DNA of 64,000 bases from an unicellular cyanobacterium SU2 (GTDB lineage Bacteria; Cyanobacteriota; Cyanobacteriia; Cyanobacteriales; Microcystaceae): assembly GCA_002110465.1 (NCBI GenBank), contig NEED01000023.1, positions 1 through 64,000 of the forward strand, in the 5' to 3' direction. Shown here one piece after another: positions 19,308 to 60,650 of the stretch (position 1 is the stretch's first letter; each line of letters starts with the position of its first letter). The position numbers and the translations under genes are program-made. The notes below the pieces were generated by a model that was not told where the DNA came from, did no database searches, and worked only from the letters and a program-made list of their open reading frames with translations.

Positions 19308-19745
19308 GTGATCGCATTTACAGATCGAGAAATCCAAAGAGCTTATCGATAAAACAAATCAGCTTATCATAATACTGGAAAACGAACTAATGCTCATCGA
19401 TTACTTCTCTTTTATTCTGTAGAATGTGGTCTAAAAGCAGTCATTATGAAAAGACAACGTAAAAATCGTACTGATTGCTGTCAAGAGATTATTCAATCGC
19501 AACACAACATCAATAAGTTATTAGATTGTTTAAAAGCTGGTAAACAATTAAAGTTACCTGAACAATTAAATATGAAATTTTTGAAAATAACCAACACTCA
19601 AATAGAAGAAAGAAAATGTGAGATTGGTAAAATCAATCAGATGTGGCGTTATGGAGGTTGTTCAGAAAGCGTTAATAATAAAGATACTGAACTAGAAGAA
19701 AAATTAGTTAAAATATCACACTGGATTGAACAAGAACTTAGGTAA
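19308..19745 (+). pseudogene. HEPN-like small protein interrupted by an in-frame TAA
   Basis: One reading frame runs from GTG 19308 to 19745 and is broken only by TAA at 19350-19352. Before the stop it reads IAFTDREIQRAYR, and after it NKSAYHNTGKRTNAHRLLL, FYSVECGLKAV, and a helical remainder with a late RYGG. An ATG at 19446 could start the intact last 99 codons. The all-helical layout with H-RLLLFYSVECGLKA is reminiscent of HEPN-domain proteins (inference, not proved). It ends 3 bases before the NTPase gene, so the two form an operon. It is either a disabled partner or a gene translated only from 19446. Confidence 0.55.
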
Positions 19746-19748
19746 ATT

Positions 19749-22514
19749 ATGACATTTCTTAGATTGCTAACATGGTTGGATGTTAAGCGCGTAATTGCTC
19801 AAAAGACTAATTATGGTAACAAGTTACCTAATGGAATAATTCGGATAAGTTGCTTTTCAGATGCTTTAGAAATAAGTTTACATGACGAAAGTCATAAAAA
19901 TAATACTTCTACTATCTTAAAAGAATGGTTTCGGGATTGGTATCAGGAAGAAAAAGAAGTTATTCAATTAGATTTTGGGGAAGTTGACTTACCAATAGAA
20001 TTTATTTTTGATGAGCAAGTATTATCGGTTCATCCTTCAATTCATCCCTTTTGGAAAGAAGTTACCTATCTTAGTAACAATAATCAAATTAGCAAATTTC
20101 TCCCAAAACCCTATTCCGAAAAACCAAATTTAATTGCTTTCTATTCTTTTAAAGGTGGTGTAGGAAGAACGTTACACCTAACAGCTTATGTTTTTGCATT
20201 GCTAGAAAGAGCTAAACAAATCAATAAAAAGATTAATGTATTAGTCATTGATGCTGATTTAGAAGCACCTGGATTAACCTATTATTGGAATTCTTCCCAG
20301 AAACTCAAACCTAAGATTTCATTTATTGATTTTCTAGAGATTTATCATTATTCTCCTGATTCTGTAGAAAAATCGTTAGAACTGTTGGCATCTGAAATCA
20401 AAAAATCTCCTCACAGTGAAGGTAAATCAACCTTGTATTTTTTACCTGCTTTTTATGAAGAAAAACAGTTATTAGATACTCCTACTTTACCAGAAAATTT
20501 AGTAAGAAACTTAGATGGAACTTGGGAATGTGGGGATGCTATCTATAAATTAGGTCAAGCGGTGGAGGCAGATTATATATTTATTGATCTTAGAGCAGGA
20601 TTAAGTGAAATTTCTAGTCCACTAGTCTTTGATCCCAGAATGCAACGCTTTTTAGTAACTACTTTAAATGAACAATCTATTAATGGGACAAAGTTAGTAT
20701 TAGAACAATTAGGCCATATCGCTTATATCGAAAGTGAAACTAATGATGAAAACAAACTCAATCATGAGAAATATTTTGATCCATCGGTTATTATTAGCTG
20801 GCTGACTCCTGAAGTAAAATCTTTACCAGCTTTTGATGAAAGTATTACTAAATTGCAATCAGCTTATATTCAATCTAAAAACGAAGATTTATATTCAACT
20901 AGACTAGAGATTCAAGAATCTTCTTTTGCTCAAGAATTACTTTACATTAATAATTGGGAAGAAGCTCAAAAAAAACTAGAAGGAACTTCAGTAATGGATA
21001 TTGCTACAATATGGGCTGAAGAACAATTAATGTTGGAATCAACCAAGAGACGAAATCAAGATAGTCAAGAACTTGATCAAGTTAGAACACTCCGAGAAAT
21101 TTGTAGAAAATATGAGTATGCAGAGGAAGGCGAAAGCGACGATTTATTAGTGACAGAACCGTTGAAAAATTTAGCCCTCAATTTTCAAGATAATTTACCT
21201 CATATTGTTTCCATTGGTTCCAAAGGTGCAGGAAAAACTTTTAACTATATTCAGTTATCACGGTTTAAATATTGGGAAAAATTCCTAGAAAAAACTAATT
21301 CAACTAATACTCAGGTAGAACGGACAACCTATATATTACCTTTACTAGAATCTACTAACTTAAGCGATACAGCTAAAGATATTACGAGTGAAGCAAGAGA
21401 TATGGCAAGAAAAGCTGTAGGCGATGATTTATCTGAATTTTTACCATCGGAATGTCGTGATAGAATCAAAAACAATCTTACTTTTGATCATCTGAGTGAA
21501 CCAGATTGGACAGAAATTTGGGTAAGAGAAATTTCTCAAGCTATTGGGGTAGCAACCACAAAAATATCAACAATGACTCTTTCTAGTCTTAACCAATATC
21601 TTCAAGAAAAATCATTAAAATTGATTATTATATTTGATGGATTGGAAGACATATTTCCTAACATTGCTACTAATGAAAAAGAGAAGATTGCGTTAAAAGC
21701 TTTAATCGATGATCTTCCTAATAAACTCTCAGAAATTAGACAAGCAAACTTAGGAATCATTATTTTCCTTAGAAGAGATTTTTTAAGAAATACAATCACT
21801 CAAAATGTGAATCAATTTGAGAATCGTTATAGTGCTTATGATTTAACTTGGAATCAAGAATCTTTCTTGAAATTAGCTTTTTGGCTGTGTGGTCAAGCTC
21901 AAGTTATTGAAGCAAAAACAGATGCTATAGATATTTTAAGTAGAGAAGAATTAAAGGACAAACTTGAACTCTTATGGGGTAAAAAATTAGGCACAGATAA
22001 ATCAAAAGAGTCTTATTCCGCTTCTTGGATTTTTGCTGCTTTAACTGATTTTAATGGAAGACTTCAGGCCAGAGATATTGTTCGCTTTTTATACCACGCA
22101 GCGAATATTACTATTGAGAGAGCATCAGAAGTACAATTTGAAAGATGGTCTAGGAGTCGATTATTACCCCCTCAAGCTATTCGTCGCGCTCTTAAACCTT
22201 GTAGTGAAAAGAAAGTTGAAGAAGCTAAAGAAGAATATCCAGCTTTTAAAAAGTGGGTTGAGCAGGTACTTCCTAAATATCAACCTATCGATTTAAAAAT
22301 TCCTTTTGATGATAATCAGTTTGAATTAGATATACTGACGAAAAATATTCTTGAACAAATGGGAGTAATTTATGAAGATAAAGAAAAAGGAAACTTAGAA
22401 CGTTTTTATATACCAGAAATTTTCCGAGAAGGATTAGGATTTTCTGGTAAAGGTGCGCGTCCTCGCGTTGTTGCTTTAAAGCGGAAAGTGTTAGGTCAAA
22501 CTTTTAAAGATTAG
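19749..22514 (+). CDS. KGGVGR-motif dual P-loop NTPase, candidate conflict/defence protein
   Basis: A 921-residue protein with two NTPase units. Residues 127-180 hold a ParA/MinD-like deviant Walker A, FYSFKGGVGRT (KGGVGRT at 135-141), and a VIDADLEAPGL motif; YIFIDLRAGLSE near 276-287 is the Walker B-like region. A second P-loop, GSKGAGKT, lies at 490-497 with Walker B LIIIFDGLED at 625-634. No transmembrane segment is seen. KGGVGR ATPases paired with small partners have been predicted as NTP-dependent conflict systems. Composition is AT-richer than the ribosomal block. It is probably cytosolic and coupled to the upstream HEPN-like gene. Function is inferred from architecture only. Confidence 0.75.
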   Translation: MTFLRLLTWLDVKRVIAQKTNYGNKLPNGIIRISCFSDALEISLHDESHKNNTSTILKEWFRDWYQEEKEVIQLDFGEVDLPIEFIFDEQVLSVHPSIHPFWKEVTYLSNNNQISKFLPKPYSEKPNLIAFYSFKGGVGRTLHLTAYVFALLERAKQINKKINVLVIDADLEAPGLTYYWNSSQKLKPKISFIDFLEIYHYSPDSVEKSLELLASEIKKSPHSEGKSTLYFLPAFYEEKQLLDTPTLPENLVRNLDGTWECGDAIYKLGQAVEADYIFIDLRAGLSEISSPLVFDPRMQRFLVTTLNEQSINGTKLVLEQLGHIAYIESETNDENKLNHEKYFDPSVIISWLTPEVKSLPAFDESITKLQSAYIQSKNEDLYSTRLEIQESSFAQELLYINNWEEAQKKLEGTSVMDIATIWAEEQLMLESTKRRNQDSQELDQVRTLREICRKYEYAEEGESDDLLVTEPLKNLALNFQDNLPHIVSIGSKGAGKTFNYIQLSRFKYWEKFLEKTNSTNTQVERTTYILPLLESTNLSDTAKDITSEARDMARKAVGDDLSEFLPSECRDRIKNNLTFDHLSEPDWTEIWVREISQAIGVATTKISTMTLSSLNQYLQEKSLKLIIIFDGLEDIFPNIATNEKEKIALKALIDDLPNKLSEIRQANLGIIIFLRRDFLRNTITQNVNQFENRYSAYDLTWNQESFLKLAFWLCGQAQVIEAKTDAIDILSREELKDKLELLWGKKLGTDKSKESYSASWIFAALTDFNGRLQARDIVRFLYHAANITIERASEVQFERWSRSRLLPPQAIRRALKPCSEKKVEEAKEEYPAFKKWVEQVLPKYQPIDLKIPFDDNQFELDILTKNILEQMGVIYEDKEKGNLERFYIPEIFREGLGFSGKGARPRVVALKRKVLGQTFKD

Positions 22515-26545: not shown

Positions 26546-27239
26546 ATGAACTGTCCTAAATGTAGCTCTAATAATATTAGAAAAAACGGTCATAGACGAG
26601 GAAAGCAAAACTATCAATGTAAAGATTGTGGAAGACAATTCATTAATTTTTATTCTCATAATGGTTATCCTGAAAAGTTTAAAGAAGAATGTTTGACTAT
26701 GTATGTAAATGGGAATGGATTTAGGGCTATTGAAAGAATTAAAAAAGTCAACCGTAATACAGTCATACGCTGGGTAAGAGAGAAAGGAAAACAGTTACCA
26801 GACAGTCCTGAAGACTACAAAATTCCACAGGTTGCTCAATTAGATGAATTACAAACATTTGTAGATAAAAAAAAATAAGATATGGATTTGGACAGCTTTG
26901 GATAAGGATTACTCTTCTATTTTAGAATATGTAATAGGTAATAGAAGTGCAGAAACCTTTGAAGAATTATGGTCAAAAGTAAAAAAATGGAATTGTTATT
27001 TTTGGATAACAGATTGATATAAAGTTTATCCAAAATTCATTCCTGACGTAGACCAGATTATTAGCAAAACCTCTATGACAAGAATAGAGGGAGAAAATAG
27101 TCGTTTACGTCATTATTTAGCTAGACTGCATCGCAAAACATTCTGTTATTCCAAGTCAAAAGAAATGCTATTTTTATCGCTCAAACTACTTATTTATTAC
27201 TTAAAAAATAAAGATATTTATTCCCTAATTAAGAATTAG
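26546..27239 (+). pseudogene. IS1-family transposase, frameshifted and interrupted by TGA
   Basis: The first frame (26546-26878) has the InsA-type zinc domain CPKCSSNNIRKNGHRRGKQN with CKDCGRQF, a helix-turn-helix, and ends in QLDELQTFVDKKK. It stops just after A9 (26867-26875). The second frame continues NKIWIWTALDKDYSSILEYV and ends with RIEGENSRLRHYLARLHRKT, giving the DDE catalytic glutamate. Losing one A (or adding two) restores continuity. A further in-frame TGA at 27015-27017 replaces the residue after FWITD. The element is therefore dead. The exact IS ends were not found. Confidence 0.9.
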
Positions 27240-31022: not shown

Positions 31023-31592
31023 ATGTACCGTAAGAAATCGCGCTCGCTAGATAACATAGAAAACTTTGAATTATTGCCAGGAACCAAGTTATCGTCAGAA
31101 AATCGTTGGGTAATCATAGCGGAACTAATACCTTGGGAGGAGTTTGAAGAAGAATACGCCAAACAGTTTAAAATGGAAAAAAAGAAAAAGCCAAGAACGT
31201 ATCGAAATATAGCAAGAAAAGAGTATTTAAGAATAGCTAAAAAACGTTGTTCTACTAAAAAAGAGAGAAGAGAAGCGATTAGAAAACAACTCAAGTATAT
31301 TGAAAAGAATCTAGTCAGTATAGAGAAACTAATCTTAGAAGGAGCCACCCTAGATAGCCTAAATAAAAGACAAAGAAAGCTTCTGGGAGTTGTCAAAAAA
31401 GTCCATGAACAGCAACTCCAGATGTGGGAAAAAGAAACCAAAAGTGTTCCCCAAAGAATTGTCAGTATAACTCAACCGCATATTCGACCTATCGTGAGAG
31501 GAAAAGCAGGAAAACCCACAGAGTTTGGAGCCAAACTATCTATAAGTTGTATAGATGATTATATATTTTTAGATCGAATAAGTTGGGAAAAC
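31023..31592 (+). pseudogene. IS5/IS1182-type transposase remnant, internally deleted and truncated
   Basis: It starts MYRKKSRSLDNIENFELLPG and IIAELIPWEEFEEEYAKQF, the N-terminus of this transposase group. It then jumps to KKKPRTYRNIARKEYLRIAKK and RIVSITQPHIRPIVRGKAG, omitting the central 100 or more residues that carry the first catalytic Asp. It ends at DRISWEN, where the sequence switches to an oppositely oriented tnpB remnant. About 190 residues of a protein usually over 450 are left. Family naming is from recall. Confidence 0.8.
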
Positions 31593-32340
31593 TATGTGAC
31601 CACAATTCCCACAGCGTTTACTGCTAGGAAAATAGCGATCAATCTTAATTAATTCTTTCCCGTACCATTGATATTTATACTCTAGTTGTCGGTTAAATTC
31701 TCCCCAACTAGCGTCACTAATTGACCTAGCTAATTTATGGTTCTTTACCATATTTCTAATAGCTAAGTCTTCAATAGCAATCAGATCATTTTCTCGAACA
31801 AGCTTAGTGGTTAACTTGTGGAGAAAATCGGTACGGGAATCTTTTATTTGAGCGTGGATTTTAGCTACTTCTAACCTTGCTTTATAGCGATTGTTTGAGC
31901 CTTTGGTTTTCCGACTCAATGCTTTCTGCTTTCTTTTTAGCTTTTTATATAAGCGATTAAATTGTTTGGGGTTGGCTACTTTTTCCCCGTCGCTAGTAGT
32001 AATCAAGCTAGTAATCCCGACATCAATCCCTACTTGTTTACCTGTTTTTGGTAATGGCTTAATAGTCGGATCTTTAATTAAAATCGATACAAACCAGCGT
32101 CCCGATGGGTCAAGTTTCACTGTTACGGTAGAAGGCTTACAATCTTGAGGGAAAAAGCGACTCCAGACAATATTAAGAGGTTTTTTGCTTTTAGCTAAAA
32201 ATAACTTACCATCCTTCCATTTGAAAGCTGATTTAGTAAATTCTGCACTCCCTCCATTACGTTTTTTCTTGAAGTTAGGGTATTTAGCTCGTTGAGCATG
32301 AAAGTTAGTAAAAGCGGAATCGATAGGCACGTTCTGTCAT
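31593..32340 (-). pseudogene. IS200/IS605 tnpB (OrfB) remnant with deletion and lost C-terminus
   Basis: From ATG 32340 it reads MTERAYRFRFY and then meets a stop. The body resumes in another frame as AFTNFHAQRAKYPNFKKKRN and runs through VGIDVGITSL (first RuvC Asp) and IAIEDLAIRNMV (RuvC Glu) to PSSKRCGNCGHI, the first half of the zinc ribbon. Roughly 85 codons between the two parts are missing, and the shared bases GCTTTTAC at the junction suggest a microhomology deletion. The last RuvC Asp and the 3' guide-RNA end are gone. Not functional. Confidence 0.88.
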
Positions 32341-32630: not shown

Positions 32631-35255
32631 ATGTCTTTTGTAGGATTACACATTCACAGTGATTATAGTCTGCTTGATGGAGCGTCTCAACTAGATGCTT
32701 TAATTGAGCGAGCGGTAGAATTAGAAATGCCAGCGATCGCTCTAACGGATCATGGAGTGATGTATGGAGCGATCGAACTGATGAAAGTTTGCCGTAATAA
32801 GGGAATTAAACCCATTATTGGCAATGAAATGTATGTTATTAATGATGATATTGAAGTTAACAAACGCCACCGAAGATATCATCAAGTTGTCTTAGCAAAA
32901 AATACTCAAGGCTATAAAAATTTAGTCAAATTAACAAGTATATCCCATCTTAAAGGAATTCAAGGAAAGGGGATTTTTTCCCGTCCCTGTATCAATAAAG
33001 AATTACTAACCCAATATCATGAAGGGTTAATTGTTACCAGTGCTTGTTTAGGCGGAGAAATTCCCCAAAGAATTTTAGCGGGAGATTTAAAACAGGCCAA
33101 AGAAGTGGCTAAATGGTATAAAAAACTCTTTAAAGATGACTACTATTTAGAAATTCAAGATCATGGCTCTAAAGAAGATCGAATTGTTAACCGAGAACTT
33201 GTGAAAATTGCTCGTAATTTAGATATTAAAATTATTGCTACCAATGACTCCCATTTTATCTCTTGCTATGATGTAGAAGCCCATGATGCTTTACTTTGTA
33301 TTCAAACAGGTAAATTAATTACAGAAGACAAACGTCTTAGATATAGTGGGACTGAATACCTAAAATCTGCCGCAGAAATGCGATTATTATTTCGAGATCA
33401 TCTCCCGGATGATGTCATTGAAGAAGCTATTAATAATACCCTAGAAGTTGCTGATAAAATTGAACCTTATAAAAATATTTTTGGAGAACCTCGCATTCCT
33501 AATTATCCTGTTCCTCCAGGACATACTCCTGATAGTTATGTTGAAGAAATAACCTGGAAAGGGTTAATGGAACGGCTAAAATGTCGCTCCCGTGAAGAAA
33601 TTCCTGAGGACTATAAAGAAAGATTAGAATATGAATTAAAGATGCTGCAAAGAATGGGATTTTCGACCTATTTCTTAGTAGTTTGGGATTATATTAAATA
33701 TGCAAGAGATAACAATATTCCTGTAGGACCAGGAAGAGGATCGGCTGCGGGATCTTTAGTCGCTTATTGTTTAAAAATAACTAATATAGATCCGGTTCAT
33801 CATGGTCTTTTATTTGAAAGATTTTTAAATCCTGAACGGAAATCGATGCCCGACATTGATACAGATTTTTGTATTGAAAGACGGGATGAAATGATTCAAT
33901 ATGTTACTGAAAAATATGGAGAAGCTAATGTTGCTCAAATTATTACTTTTAACAGAATGACTTCTAAAGCTGTTTTAAAAGATGTGGCTAGGGTGTTAAA
34001 TATTCCCTATGCAGAATCCGATAAAATGGCGAAAATGATTCCAGTTTCAAGGGGAAAACCCACTAAATTAAAGGTAATGATTTCCGATGAAACTCCTTGT
34101 GTTGAATTCAAAGAAAAATACGATAATGACCCCGAAGTTCGCCGTTGGTTAGATATGGCAATTCGCATAGAAGGAACCAATAAAACTTTTGGAGTTCATG
34201 CAGCAGGGGTGGTTATTTCTTCGGAACCGTTAGATGAAGTTGTCCCTCTCCAAAAGAATAATGAAGGAGCAGTTATTACTCAATATTTTATGGAAGATTT
34301 GGAGTCCTTGGGATTACTAAAAATGGACTTTTTAGGATTACGAAACTTGACAACTATTCAGAGAACAGCAGATTTAATCAAGCAAAATAGAAATATAGAT
34401 ATAGATTTAGATCAATTACCCTTAGAGGAAAGAAAAGCTTTACAAATTATTGCTAAAGGAACTGCCAAAAAGCTTCCAGGTGATATAGAAAAAACCCATA
34501 AACTTTTAGAAAGAGGAGACTTAGAGGGAATTTTTCAGTTAGAATCATCGGGAATGAAGCAAATTGTTAAAGATTTAAAACCATCAGGAATTGAAGATAT
34601 TTCTTCTATTTTAGCTCTTTATCGTCCTGGTCCTTTGGATGCGGGACTTATTCCTAAATTTATTGATCGTAAACATGGAAAAGAAGCGATTCAATATGAA
34701 CATTCTCTATTAGAACCTATTCTTAAAGAAACCTATGCTGTCTTAGTTTATCAAGAACAAATTATGAAGATGGCACAAGATTTAGCCGGTTATTCTTTAG
34801 GAGAAGCCGACTTATTACGTCGAGCAATGGGAAAAAAGAAAATCTCAGAAATGAAAAAGCATCGAGAGATTTTTATTGATGGTTCTACTAAAAATGGGGT
34901 TCCTAGAGATGTAGCAGAAAATTTATACGAACAAATGGTTAAGTTTGCCGAATATTGCTTGAGTTATGACACAGAGATATTAACCGTAGAATATGGAGCA
35001 ATTCCCATCGGTAAAGTGGTAGAAGAAAATCTTGATTGTACCGTTTATACTGTGGAGCAAAATGGCTTTGTTTATACCCAACCGATTCAACAATGGCATC
35101 CGCGAGGACAACAAGAAATCTTTGAATATTGTCTTGATGATGGTTCGATTATTCGAGCAACAAAAGATCATAAATTTATGACGACTGAAGGAGAAATGCT
35201 ACCCATTCATAATATTTTTGAGCAAGGATTAGAGTTACAGCAAATATTTCTCTGA
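32631..35255 (+). CDS. dnaE: DNA polymerase III alpha subunit, N-part, with N-terminal split intein
   Basis: 874 residues. Residues 1-775 are the N-extein: a PHP domain from [18 protein letters not shown], the [11 protein letters not shown] block near 366 and the catalytic PDIDTDF near 407-413. At Cys776 (34956-34958), directly after KFAEY, begins the 99-residue IntN with [14 protein letters not shown] and RATKDHKFM (TxxH block). The partner dnaE-C with IntC is encoded elsewhere, and the halves are joined by protein trans-splicing. AGAAGGA precedes the ATG. This is the known cyanobacterial arrangement, not a truncation. Confidence 0.97.
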
Positions 35256-58099: not shown

Positions 58100-58576
58100 C
58101 TAGGGTAAGTAATCAGGATTCAGCACTTGGTCAGGAGTGAAAGGAGATTTCGCAGGAAAGGTATCAAGAGGTAATCCAGTTTCATCGGCGGCCTGTTCTC
58201 TGCTATCTTGATAAGACTCATCAAAAACTAAGGCAAAATAATTTTTTAAACTAGGACTAGCTCGAAAATCATCTCTTAATCTACGGCGATGCTCTCTGAT
58301 ACTAGCTTTCCAACTATTCGTTCTTTTCTGGGGCTGATACTTGTATTTGAGTAAATGGAGTAAGACAACAATTAAATTACTTTTGATTGCTTTCTTCTCA
58401 CTTCTGCCCATATCGCTGATTTCTTCAACTAAGTTAGCTGTATCTACCTCAGAAAATTTACCTTCAGAGATTAATTGGGCAGTATGTTCTAACCAAAGAT
58501 AATAATCGCGTTCGTAAAGATTATCTGTATTAGTCGTTGATGACAAAGGATTATTGGAACAGTTTAAATACAGCAT
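58100..58576 (-). CDS. DUF29-family protein overlapping the DUF262-AlbA_2 gene
   Basis: 158 residues. The DUF29 core is LYERDYYLWLEHTAQLISEG, then NLVEEISDMGRSEKKAIKSN and LLHLLKYKYQPQKRTNSWKA. DUF29 is common and often multicopy in cyanobacteria, of unknown function. The frame overlaps the upstream gene by 26 bases; the first 17 residues are unlike the family, so a start at TTG 58546 is also possible. The overlap suggests coupled expression. Confidence 0.85.
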   Translation of the reverse strand: MLYLNCSNNPLSSTTNTDNLYERDYYLWLEHTAQLISEGKFSEVDTANLVEEISDMGRSEKKAIKSNLIVVLLHLLKYKYQPQKRTNSWKASIREHRRRLRDDFRASPSLKNYFALVFDESYQDSREQAADETGLPLDTFPAKSPFTPDQVLNPDYLP

Positions 58577-60341
58577 TCACTTGTTTTCCAGATACTTCTT
58601 GTGGTTGCTTCTCATGTCCATCACGTATATATAGTTTATCGTCATACCATACAGGTTCATCTCCTGCTTGTATTGTACACATTAAGACTGTATGATCTTT
58701 ATAAGTAATAGGTGTTAAATTTGTATTAATACTTGTTTTCAGCCATTCAGGTAATTTTGATTTTCTAATTTTTCTACTAATTAACATAATATAATCATCC
58801 AAACTCATATTGTTTATCTTTGCCTCTCTTTCTAAACCAACAATACCAAAATAACCAACTCTAGGAGCAATAATATTATCTAATTTTTCTATTTTTTGCG
58901 TATCTGTCTCTTTGTCAGTAACTCCGATAAATATATAACCCTTTTTCCCTTTGCCTAAATTTGCCATCGCAGAAAAGTTTTGACAAATTTTTTCAAAGCT
59001 GTCTTGATTAAATTCTCTATTTTTTGGGTTTAAACTAATAAGTCCTTGTTTAAAATCATAACTTGGAGCTTCTGTTTTTGAAAGTCTTAAATAATTTTCA
59101 AAGTCTATAGTATGTGATCCACTACTACGAATTTTAGAACTACAAGCCTTAAAATATTTTTCAATTAATCCTCTTGTAAGATCGATATTATGGATTCTAT
59201 TTTCCGTTGTAATACTTGAACTCATTTTTAACTTAGCTATTAAACCTTCAACAGCTTCAAAGATTTTTTGATAAATAAAAGGTTCTTTTTCTTGTTGTAT
59301 AATCAATTCATAAAAAGCCATAAATAAAGTATAAAAAGGCTCCTTTACAGGATTAGTTGTTCCACCACTACGGCTTAATGTTTTTCTTAAAAAATTCCTA
59401 TCATTATTTGGTTCTACTGACGAAATTGAATTTTTAATATATGAAATTACTGTTTTTACATCTGTCTTTAGATTATCTAAACCATACTTTGATACAGCTA
59501 TTTCTATCTCATCTAATTTACTATTATCAGCTTTACCGTAGTACGCATCAAAATTCTCTTTTTTAGCAGCAAAGGGTTTACCTAAAGCTATTGATAAAAT
59601 TAAATCGGCTAATAGTTGCTCGTCAGAACTATCTCTAAGATCTCGATTTCTAATAATTCCCTGATAACACCAAAATGTATCTTCTGCTGACACTCCATAT
59701 CCTAAATCAACAGACTTAAAATCAATACTAATTTCTGGCATCTCGGTTAAAGGTATAATTTCTCTGGATACATCTCCTCGAATTTCAGAAGCTAAAGTTC
59801 TTACTAATTCAGAAAAACTTGTTGTTACACCAGCTTGTCTAACTTCTTGTGGTGACAAATGCTTTCCATTTGAATTAATCCTATCAAAAACATTTTCAAT
59901 ATCTCTTGTAGATTGCGGTTCATAAAATGTCACAGCTAGTGAATATTCTAAAAAACTGACGCATTTATCGGAGTCAAATAAATTTTCTTTCTTAACTTGA
60001 ACAGCTTTGAAAACACCTTTTTTACTTAATTCATTAGCGAGTGGATGCTGTGACACATCAAAGAATTTTTCATTAACAGAAAACTGATTTTCAATGAAAC
60101 TACATATTGCGTTTAATCGTTGCATTCCATCAATAATTTCATAGGCATTTTCGTCTTTTTCTGATTTGCCCAATAAAATTAAAGGAATCGGATAATTTAA
60201 AAAAATACTTTCAATTAAAGATGCTTTTTCTTCTTTTGTCCATACAAGTTTACGTTGATATCGTCGGTTAACTATTAATTTTTTATTTCTGTAAAGACGA
60301 TACAATTCTAATATACTCATTCCTTTTGGTGTAATACTCAT
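58551..60341 (-). CDS. DUF262 - AlbA_2 fusion protein, candidate defence gene
   Basis: 596 residues. The N-terminal DUF262 (ParB/GmrS-like) domain has NRRYQRKLVWTKEEKASLIE and the catalytic-type IIDGMQRLNAI (DGMQR at 71-75). A helical middle (about 230-420) follows. The C-terminal AlbA_2 domain begins near residue 430 and has GKKGYIFIGVTDKE and YIRDGHEKQPQEVSG. DUF262 is found in GmrSD-type modification-dependent restriction, AlbA_2 in Schlafen-like and regulator proteins. The gene lies beside DUF29 and hicAB. The role in defence is inferred. Confidence 0.85.
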   Translation of the reverse strand: MSITPKGMSILELYRLYRNKKLIVNRRYQRKLVWTKEEKASLIESIFLNYPIPLILLGKSEKDENAYEIIDGMQRLNAICSFIENQFSVNEKFFDVSQHPLANELSKKGVFKAVQVKKENLFDSDKCVSFLEYSLAVTFYEPQSTRDIENVFDRINSNGKHLSPQEVRQAGVTTSFSELVRTLASEIRGDVSREIIPLTEMPEISIDFKSVDLGYGVSAEDTFWCYQGIIRNRDLRDSSDEQLLADLILSIALGKPFAAKKENFDAYYGKADNSKLDEIEIAVSKYGLDNLKTDVKTVISYIKNSISSVEPNNDRNFLRKTLSRSGGTTNPVKEPFYTLFMAFYELIIQQEKEPFIYQKIFEAVEGLIAKLKMSSSITTENRIHNIDLTRGLIEKYFKACSSKIRSSGSHTIDFENYLRLSKTEAPSYDFKQGLISLNPKNREFNQDSFEKICQNFSAMANLGKGKKGYIFIGVTDKETDTQKIEKLDNIIAPRVGYFGIVGLEREAKINNMSLDDYIMLISRKIRKSKLPEWLKTSINTNLTPITYKDHTVLMCTIQAGDEPVWYDDKLYIRDGHEKQPQEVSGKQVNAVFKLFQ

Positions 60342-60401
60342 AATCGATCCTCGAAAAGATAAAATATTTAACTATTTGAGACATCAATAACATTGATTGA
60401 A

Positions 60402-60650
60402 TTAACTTTTTGGTGATGGTAACGGAATCTCTTTCTTTTCACTATAATAAACCGTTTCTATCCATAATTCCCTTGCTTCTTCAATGTTAATAACAACTTC
60501 TTCTAAGGTTTCTCCTTGAGTCATACATCCTGGTAAGTCAGTAATTAAAGCGGCATATCCTTCCTCATCTTCAGGAAAAATTGAGATAGGATATTTTAGA
60601 GATAAAAAATACTCTAAAGATGGACGTTCTAACTTTTTATTGACTGTCAT
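60402..60650 (-). CDS. HicB-family antitoxin
   Basis: 82 residues, a short HicB fold: YPISIFPEDEEGYAALITDL and PGCMTQGETLEEVVINIEEA, the partial RNase H-like core of the family. The C-terminus is short and ends IPLPSPKS without a helix-turn-helix. It overlaps the hicA frame by 14 bases. HicB would normally bind and silence the HicA mRNA interferase; here the toxin gene appears damaged. Confidence 0.88.
   Translation of the reverse strand: MTVNKKLERPSLEYFLSLKYPISIFPEDEEGYAALITDLPGCMTQGETLEEVVINIEEARELWIETVYYSEKKEIPLPSPKS

Follow-up and report, generated by a model that had tools for sequence, protein, structure and literature searches.

Organization of the A-BC locus

The window analyzed here is a 64,000-nucleotide stretch of DNA from the unicellular cyanobacterium SU2 (contig NEED01000023.1). 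It carries an A-BC module, which consists of a small HEPN-fold gene, A, and a fused double-ATPase gene, BC (Table 1). The frames of A and BC are separated by 3 bases, as the sequence-only reading had reported, and the 921-residue protein that it described, with KGGVGRT at residues 135-141 and a second P-loop, GSKGAGKT, at residues 490-497, is read as an open frame. The Walker B that it assigned to the second P-loop domain also holds, as a Walker B-like stretch reading IIIFDGLED lies at about residue 630.

Table 1. Features of the A-BC module, in window positions
Feature	Positions	Strand	Details
Gene A, HEPN-family small protein, broken	19308..19745	+	GTG start 19308, in-frame TAA 19350-19352
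Longest start-to-stop frame remaining in A, 99 aa	19446..19745	+	First two helices and ExxLK motif gone
Gene BC, fused KGGVGR ParA-like ATPase and Sll1717-type P-loop ATPase	19749..22514	+	921 aa, intact
Domain B, KGGVGR ParA/MinD-like ATPase	20124..20711	+	BC residues 126-321
Deviant Walker A of B, KGGVGRT	20151..20171	+	BC residues 135-141
Domain C, Sll1717-type P-loop ATPase	21201..22325	+	BC residues 485-859
Walker A of C, GSKGAGKT	21216..21239	+	BC residues 490-497
Walker B-like FDGLED of C	21633..21650	+	BC residues 629-634
C stretch, counterpart of stand-alone phage protein Mic1_05	21180..21839	+	BC residues 478-697; 40% identity

ParA and MinD proteins carry a P-loop lysine where the KGGVGRT of domain B has an arginine. 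This position was arginine in all 72 copies examined, a count that is partly circular, as most loci were chosen with a KGGVGR model. In domain C, all 59 full-length fused relatives have GxxxxGK[ST], and a Walker B-like pattern was found in 43 of them. The window BC matched the NCBIfam model AAA_KGGVGR (NF047398) with an E of 1.2e-48 and 165.9 bits, above the curated cut-off of 90, and ATPase_Sll1717 (NF047389) with an E of 1.7e-18 and 67.0 bits, under the curated cut-off of 75; the split-type C of locus L037 clears the latter cut-off with a score of 98.9. A Pfam scan of the window BC gave nothing above cut-off, with NCBIfam and PADLOC being the informative libraries, and a sequence search of PDB chains with the C profile gave no match at E up to 1. 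Foldseek and VIA were run on a poor BC model, and only domain-level rows were used; the absence of a family from the fold lists was not read as evidence against it. For residues 459-772, which are modeled with low confidence, these rows were RADAR RdrA, BREX BrxC, ORC/Cdc6 and Apaf-1-like NTPases.

Gene A is broken in the window. The frame that begins at the GTG at 19308 hits a TAA at codon 15, the next ATG, GTG or TTG start is the ATG at 19446, and the helices missing from the 99-residue remnant were placed by aligning the window copy to the helix positions of an intact relative. The TAA may be real, or it may be a sequencing error. The window copy is 69% identical to the intact A of locus L049 over 145 columns, with a dN of 0.19 and a dS of 0.62 after the stop, while BC gives a dN of 0.12, a dS of 0.58 and a dN/dS of 0.21 between the same loci; these values are consistent with purifying selection on both genes until recently. 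A is intact in all six of the nearest loci of relatives. A peptide-pattern scan of a one-genome-per-species collection, which shares some organisms with these six, found 16 loci, 14 of them with an intact A touching BC; one of the remaining two is cut by a contig end (L059) and the other has a broken A (L063). With A broken and BC intact, the module of this genome is probably inactive or impaired.

The A family is predicted from structural models to adopt a HEPN fold. The fold was found by a fold search on an intact relative of A, not on the window copy, and Foldseek with the A model gave no match at E under 0.001. HEPN traits that recur in A are an ExxLK motif, a histidine and an Arg-Tyr. Rx4-6H is not conserved among 72 A proteins (58 intact ones from the 72 KGGVGR places described below, without L107 and L092, nine from the 16 pattern-scan loci and five mobile copies). 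It starts at the conserved Arg-Tyr in three of them (L062, L073 and L076) and occurs anywhere in 40, at a position that varies, so an RNase action of A is putative. A Pfam scan of the window A gave nothing above cut-off, and window-type A is unmatched by the HEPN model PF05168. The earlier description of a small HEPN-like partner, for which structure prediction had been suggested, therefore stands in one part, as the fold search on the intact relative led to HEPN, and not in the other, as reading from 19308 does not give an intact gene.

Conservation and mobile settings of the pair

A KGGVGR search of 386 genomes of the phylum placed 50 genomes over the family cut-off, with 72 places, all of which were read. 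BC is fused at 51 of these, and A lies upstream in 51 of 51 (48 intact and three damaged), contrary to the refuting case of a pair that never co-occurs in other genomes. The fused loci comprise 46 intact pairs, two with an intact A and a BC that is interrupted or lacks a start (L107 and L092), and three with a damaged A (the window, L084 and L086); L107 was scored as fused because its two frames form one gene with one stop. Separate B and C genes were found at ten places, nine with A and one at a contig end (L048). At three more, A is followed by a B that is cut after about 400 residues (L040, L042 and L125), and at the remaining eight KGGVGR occurs in other contexts without A, four of them adjoining HTH genes. 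'Intact A' denotes a crude residue pattern, supplemented by a by-eye check of the sequences and rechecks of failures. An upstream-ORF scan covered 69 of the 72 places (L119, with a 404-aa neighbor, was left out, and L124 and L048 had no ORF). Seven of the 69 ORFs are not A (L092, L098, L106, L108, L123, L043 and L044), with the A of L092 lying one frame further upstream. At E up to 0.01, PDLC04558, the A model of the PADLOC system PDC-M28, matches 45 of the 69 ORFs and PF05168 matches 20.

Distances among A proteins track those among B domains, with a Mantel r of 0.96 and none of 2000 permutations as high (67 of 72 rows; L036, L095, L113, L118 and L122 were dropped, as their motif RGGVGRS was missed by the pattern). 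Part of this correlation is species relatedness, yet L070 has two different types next to each other, and each comes with an A of its own. Several loci come from the same organism and are hence not independent: L057, L050 and L003, for example, share one, and L127 has the B domain of L077 without a difference. In the B-domain tree the window groups with G048 and a copy from Microcystis, G030. Within the window's taxonomic family, seven of 50 genomes, its own among them, carry a near full-length BC relative. The peptide-pattern locus scans, which gave 16, 4, 5, 11, 7 and 1 loci, are lower bounds. A-BC is a real conserved pair that co-diverges, and the two different NTPase units in one chain with a HEPN-like partner, as first proposed, are part of that pair.

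In the relative L149, prfA, a VOC gene, a DUF1257 gene and an AAA gene stand in the window's order without A-BC, the last three as remnants, and tblastn found neither A nor BC in the eight prfA stretches fetched from relatives, each 5 to 7.5 kb long. The pair at this place is therefore an accessory insertion or one that was lost there, and the suggestion that it begins the accessory stretch of the window is supported. Six plasmid records match BC, and three were looked at. In a Nostoc plasmid (NZ_CP091916), A and BC are close to hsdR and to a gene for a recombinase; the B domain there does not differ from that of L077, and the two are probably the same organism. A Pantoea plasmid (NZ_CP031652) has A and a 928-aa BC adjoining a tyrosine recombinase, and an Agrobacterium plasmid (NZ_CP110834) has A, B and C adjoining an integrase. 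A viral-contig scan with BC gave at least five contigs, two with A-BC (L134 and L135) and three with other KGGVGR genes or weak matches, and a scan with window-type A gave at least one. In L134, a window-type A and BC are flanked by a phage portal gene (phrog_68) on one side and a gene for a replication nickase (phrog_91) on the other, the gpQ-gpA hotspot of a P2-like contig. For P2-like phages, the available text of Rousset et al. (2022, PMC9122126) describes a hotspot in the gpA-gpQ region that harbors many anti-phage systems along with some other genes. This hotspot and the plasmid sites beside an integrase or hsdR support an anti-phage role.

Several other genes in and around these loci are recorded here as observations. 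Within the window, IS1-type transposase-like and TnpB-like fragments, identified by eye at 26546-26878 and 31569-32330, mark a mobile part. The 58100-60650 stretch holds what we take to be DUF262-like, DUF29-like and HicB-like genes, with no HicA seen there, and 32631-35255 presumably encodes the N-terminal half of DnaE, at whose end the N half of a split intein seems to lie. An XRE-type HTH gene precedes the KGGVGR ATPase gene at L043 (4725-6995), L044 (5313-7620), L045 (5258-7564), L106 and L108. At L043 to L045 the HTH and ATPase genes are accompanied by a small gene that we assume to be HigB/RelE-like, and this three-gene operon, different from A-BC, resembles a toxin-antitoxin pair to which an ATPase has been added. 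Three consecutive genes of the viral contig L136 (1994-7348) encode a protein that is caspase-like by eye, one of 338 aa and a KGGVGR protein of 1096 aa, and L137 (1811-6443) has a different 616-aa KGGVGR protein and a putative HTH gene near a portal gene (phrog_68). Beside Microcystis A-B loci, L040 (3517-5170) and L031 (3125-4811) carry a DUF262-like gene with a 167-aa protein containing RNRAAH, judged by eye to be possibly another HEPN RNase pair.

Stand-alone C cores in Microcystis phages

A search of 50,697 phage records with BC matched a single protein, Mic1_05 of Microcystis phage Mic1, which has 206 aa and 61% identity to residues 471-691 of a Microcystis BC and 40% to residues 478-697 of the window BC; no phage record matched split-type C at E up to 0.001. 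Viral-contig scans add at least 11 contigs, which with Mic1 make 12 records and seven distinct sequences. All of these copies stand alone, and their match to the 913-position BC profile is confined to positions 454-730, so that the KGGVGR domain and the C-terminal part of C are missing. In the flanking sequence fetched for the 12 records, one of which (L145) is cut by a contig end, neither A nor a KGGVGR part was seen. Four of the seven distinct copies have lost Walker A (Mic1, L130/L131, L132 and L133), and three retain it (L139, L140-L144 and L145). The six complete copies share changes relative to three Microcystis host copies, such as FWVKEFSR versus FWIKEISR or FWIREIST, which suggests that they stem from one capture. 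They occur in two phage backgrounds, one Mic1-like and another with a ribonucleotide reductase gene in L142.

For each of the four phage proteins that were scanned, Sll1717 was the best NCBIfam match, with E from 2.3e-4 to 3.8e-7 and every score below the cut-off; ParA families were absent from their NCBIfam matches. Mic1 ORF5 was nevertheless published as ParA, and in the portion of that paper available a ParABS plasmid state was deduced from it together with a ParB-like gene and a palindrome (PMC7156551). Fused host protein records are labeled 'ParA family protein', and Mic1 ORF5 matches their non-ParA half; the ParA label may have come from these fused host proteins. The accessible parts of PMC7156551 and of another cyanophage paper (PMC9927357) do not treat the phage C core as a captured defense ATPase.

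We regard it as an evenly balanced possibility that Microcystis phages captured the C ATPase core from this module of their hosts and made of it a dominant-negative decoy that stands alone, a candidate counter-defense protein. This reading draws on the C core being carried alone, its P-loop being lost in four of seven distinct copies, the open frames, dN/dS below 1 and the two backgrounds. The fragments could instead be chance captures without function, which we consider unlikely. In favor of chance capture, the three distinct copies that keep the P-loop look less altered, and the selection signal is weak among the closest copies, L130, L132 and L133 (p 0.038-0.043, uncorrected), whose pairs are certainly younger than the P-loop loss. 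It is at odds with dN/dS values of 0.30-0.52 in all 15 pairs of the six phage sequences (L145 excluded; one-sided Fisher p < 0.05 each, uncorrected and not independent), and with a simulation of substitutions only, in which 141, 32 and 5 of 5000 frames stayed open at 10, 15 and 22% divergence. The length differences among the copies are also in frame, and in the Mic1-like contigs the neighbors are the same by length. That phages carry the C core alone, at dN/dS below 1, in turn supports an anti-phage role for the module. If the decoy reading is true, this would be a counter-defense protein against a system whose own activity we infer, and the Mic1 'ParA' behind the ParABS plasmid state would be a captured immune ATPase fragment. 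The present data put the published reading of ORF5 as ParA in question. Phages of hosts with the module carrying pieces of it looks like an arms-race signature, and the function of A-BC can be tested directly with one published phage and one gene.

Proposed action and relation to known systems

Two further readings of the module are at hand. A-BC could be a toxin-antitoxin addiction module with A as the HEPN toxin and the ParA-like protein as antitoxin; the two-gene HEPN and ParA-like layout fits, and the available text of Anantharaman et al. (2013, PMC3710099) proposes just such a dyad for the MAE_18760 HEPN family. We find this improbable. A is damaged beside an intact BC in the window, L063, L084 and L086, and BC is broken or cut beside an intact A in L107, L092, L040, L042 and L125. 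This independent loss of A and BC argues against a plain toxin-antitoxin pair, as an A kept after BC loss would harm the cell were it a free toxin. Moreover, BC is large and has two NTPase domains, and A is without the conserved Rx4-6H that the MAE_18760 family is listed as keeping in the accessible part of that paper. A role in plasmid or chromosome partition, which the 'ParA family protein' record labels imply and for which the ParA-fold domain also speaks, is more improbable still, and very much so: the canonical lysine is arginine in all 72 copies examined (with the circularity noted above), the partner is HEPN-like, the loci are patchy and often decayed, and the phage copies have no ParA domain.

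We favor, as moderately probable, a mobile module directed against phages and related, in fused and divergent form, to PDC-M28; in it, BC would act as sensor and switch and A as effector, and the phage fragments would interfere with it. The pair is conserved and co-divergent, BC has two P-loop domains, the prophage and plasmid sites are of a sort that defense genes use, and Microcystis phages have kept a captured C core. The conflict-system role first suggested for the pair is thus probable from its conservation, its mobile sites and the phage copies. Each step of the action is inferred. The C domain, tentatively an ORC/STAND-like ATPase, would sense a phage cue and assemble with ATP, and the KGGVGR domain, with its canonical lysine replaced by arginine, would gate by nucleotide binding rather than fast turnover. 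A would then serve as a HEPN effector or adaptor acting on RNA or translation, probably without standard Rx4-6H chemistry, and its action would stop the infected cell. Phage C-core fragments may join or titrate the C assembly.

Open-licence papers held nothing on point for PDC-M28, KGGVGR or Sll1717, most subscription papers lying outside that search; an earlier computational prediction of KGGVGR conflict systems was not found in this literature, in which the one paper with the string KGGVGR is unrelated. Among known families, AAA_KGGVGR and ATPase_Sll1717 correspond to the two halves of BC, the latter under its curated cut-off. The likeness of C to RADAR RdrA, BREX BrxC, ORC/Cdc6 and Apaf-1-like NTPases is one of predicted fold in a low-confidence model, with no sequence membership shown. 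A shares with HEPN-T (PF05168) the predicted fold, ExxLK, the histidine and Arg-Tyr, and the Pfam model recognizes relatives of A, but A lacks a conserved Rx4-6H and the window-type family is unmatched. The HEPN/ParA-Soj dyad of the MAE_18760 family likewise sets a HEPN gene beside a ParA-like ATPase gene. Its HEPN family is a different one, however, with a retained catalytic motif that A does not conserve, and the available text of PMC3710099 mentions no second ATPase.

The closest known system is PDC-M28, a phage defense candidate in PADLOC with genes A, B and C in the same order: a small HEPN-like A, a KGGVGR-type B and a Sll1717-type C. Its B model (PDLC04559) matches BC residues 123-322 with an E of 6.7e-15, and its C model (PDLC04561) matches residues 607-868 with an E of 3.9e-12. 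The A model scarcely registers, with weak matches to the window A piece (E 0.0074) and the A of L052 (E 0.019), and window-type A gave 98.9% against profile A6, 70.7% against A7 and 39.7% against the split-type A5. Unlike PDC-M28, the window has B and C fused in one chain and an A that is very divergent and, in this copy, broken. By these sequence comparisons, A-BC is a fused, divergent relative of PDC-M28, already listed as a candidate, and a variant of it rather than a new category. What was a database candidate is now given an architecture, HEPN plus two different NTPases that are often fused, and its relatives a wide cyanobacterial and mobile distribution.
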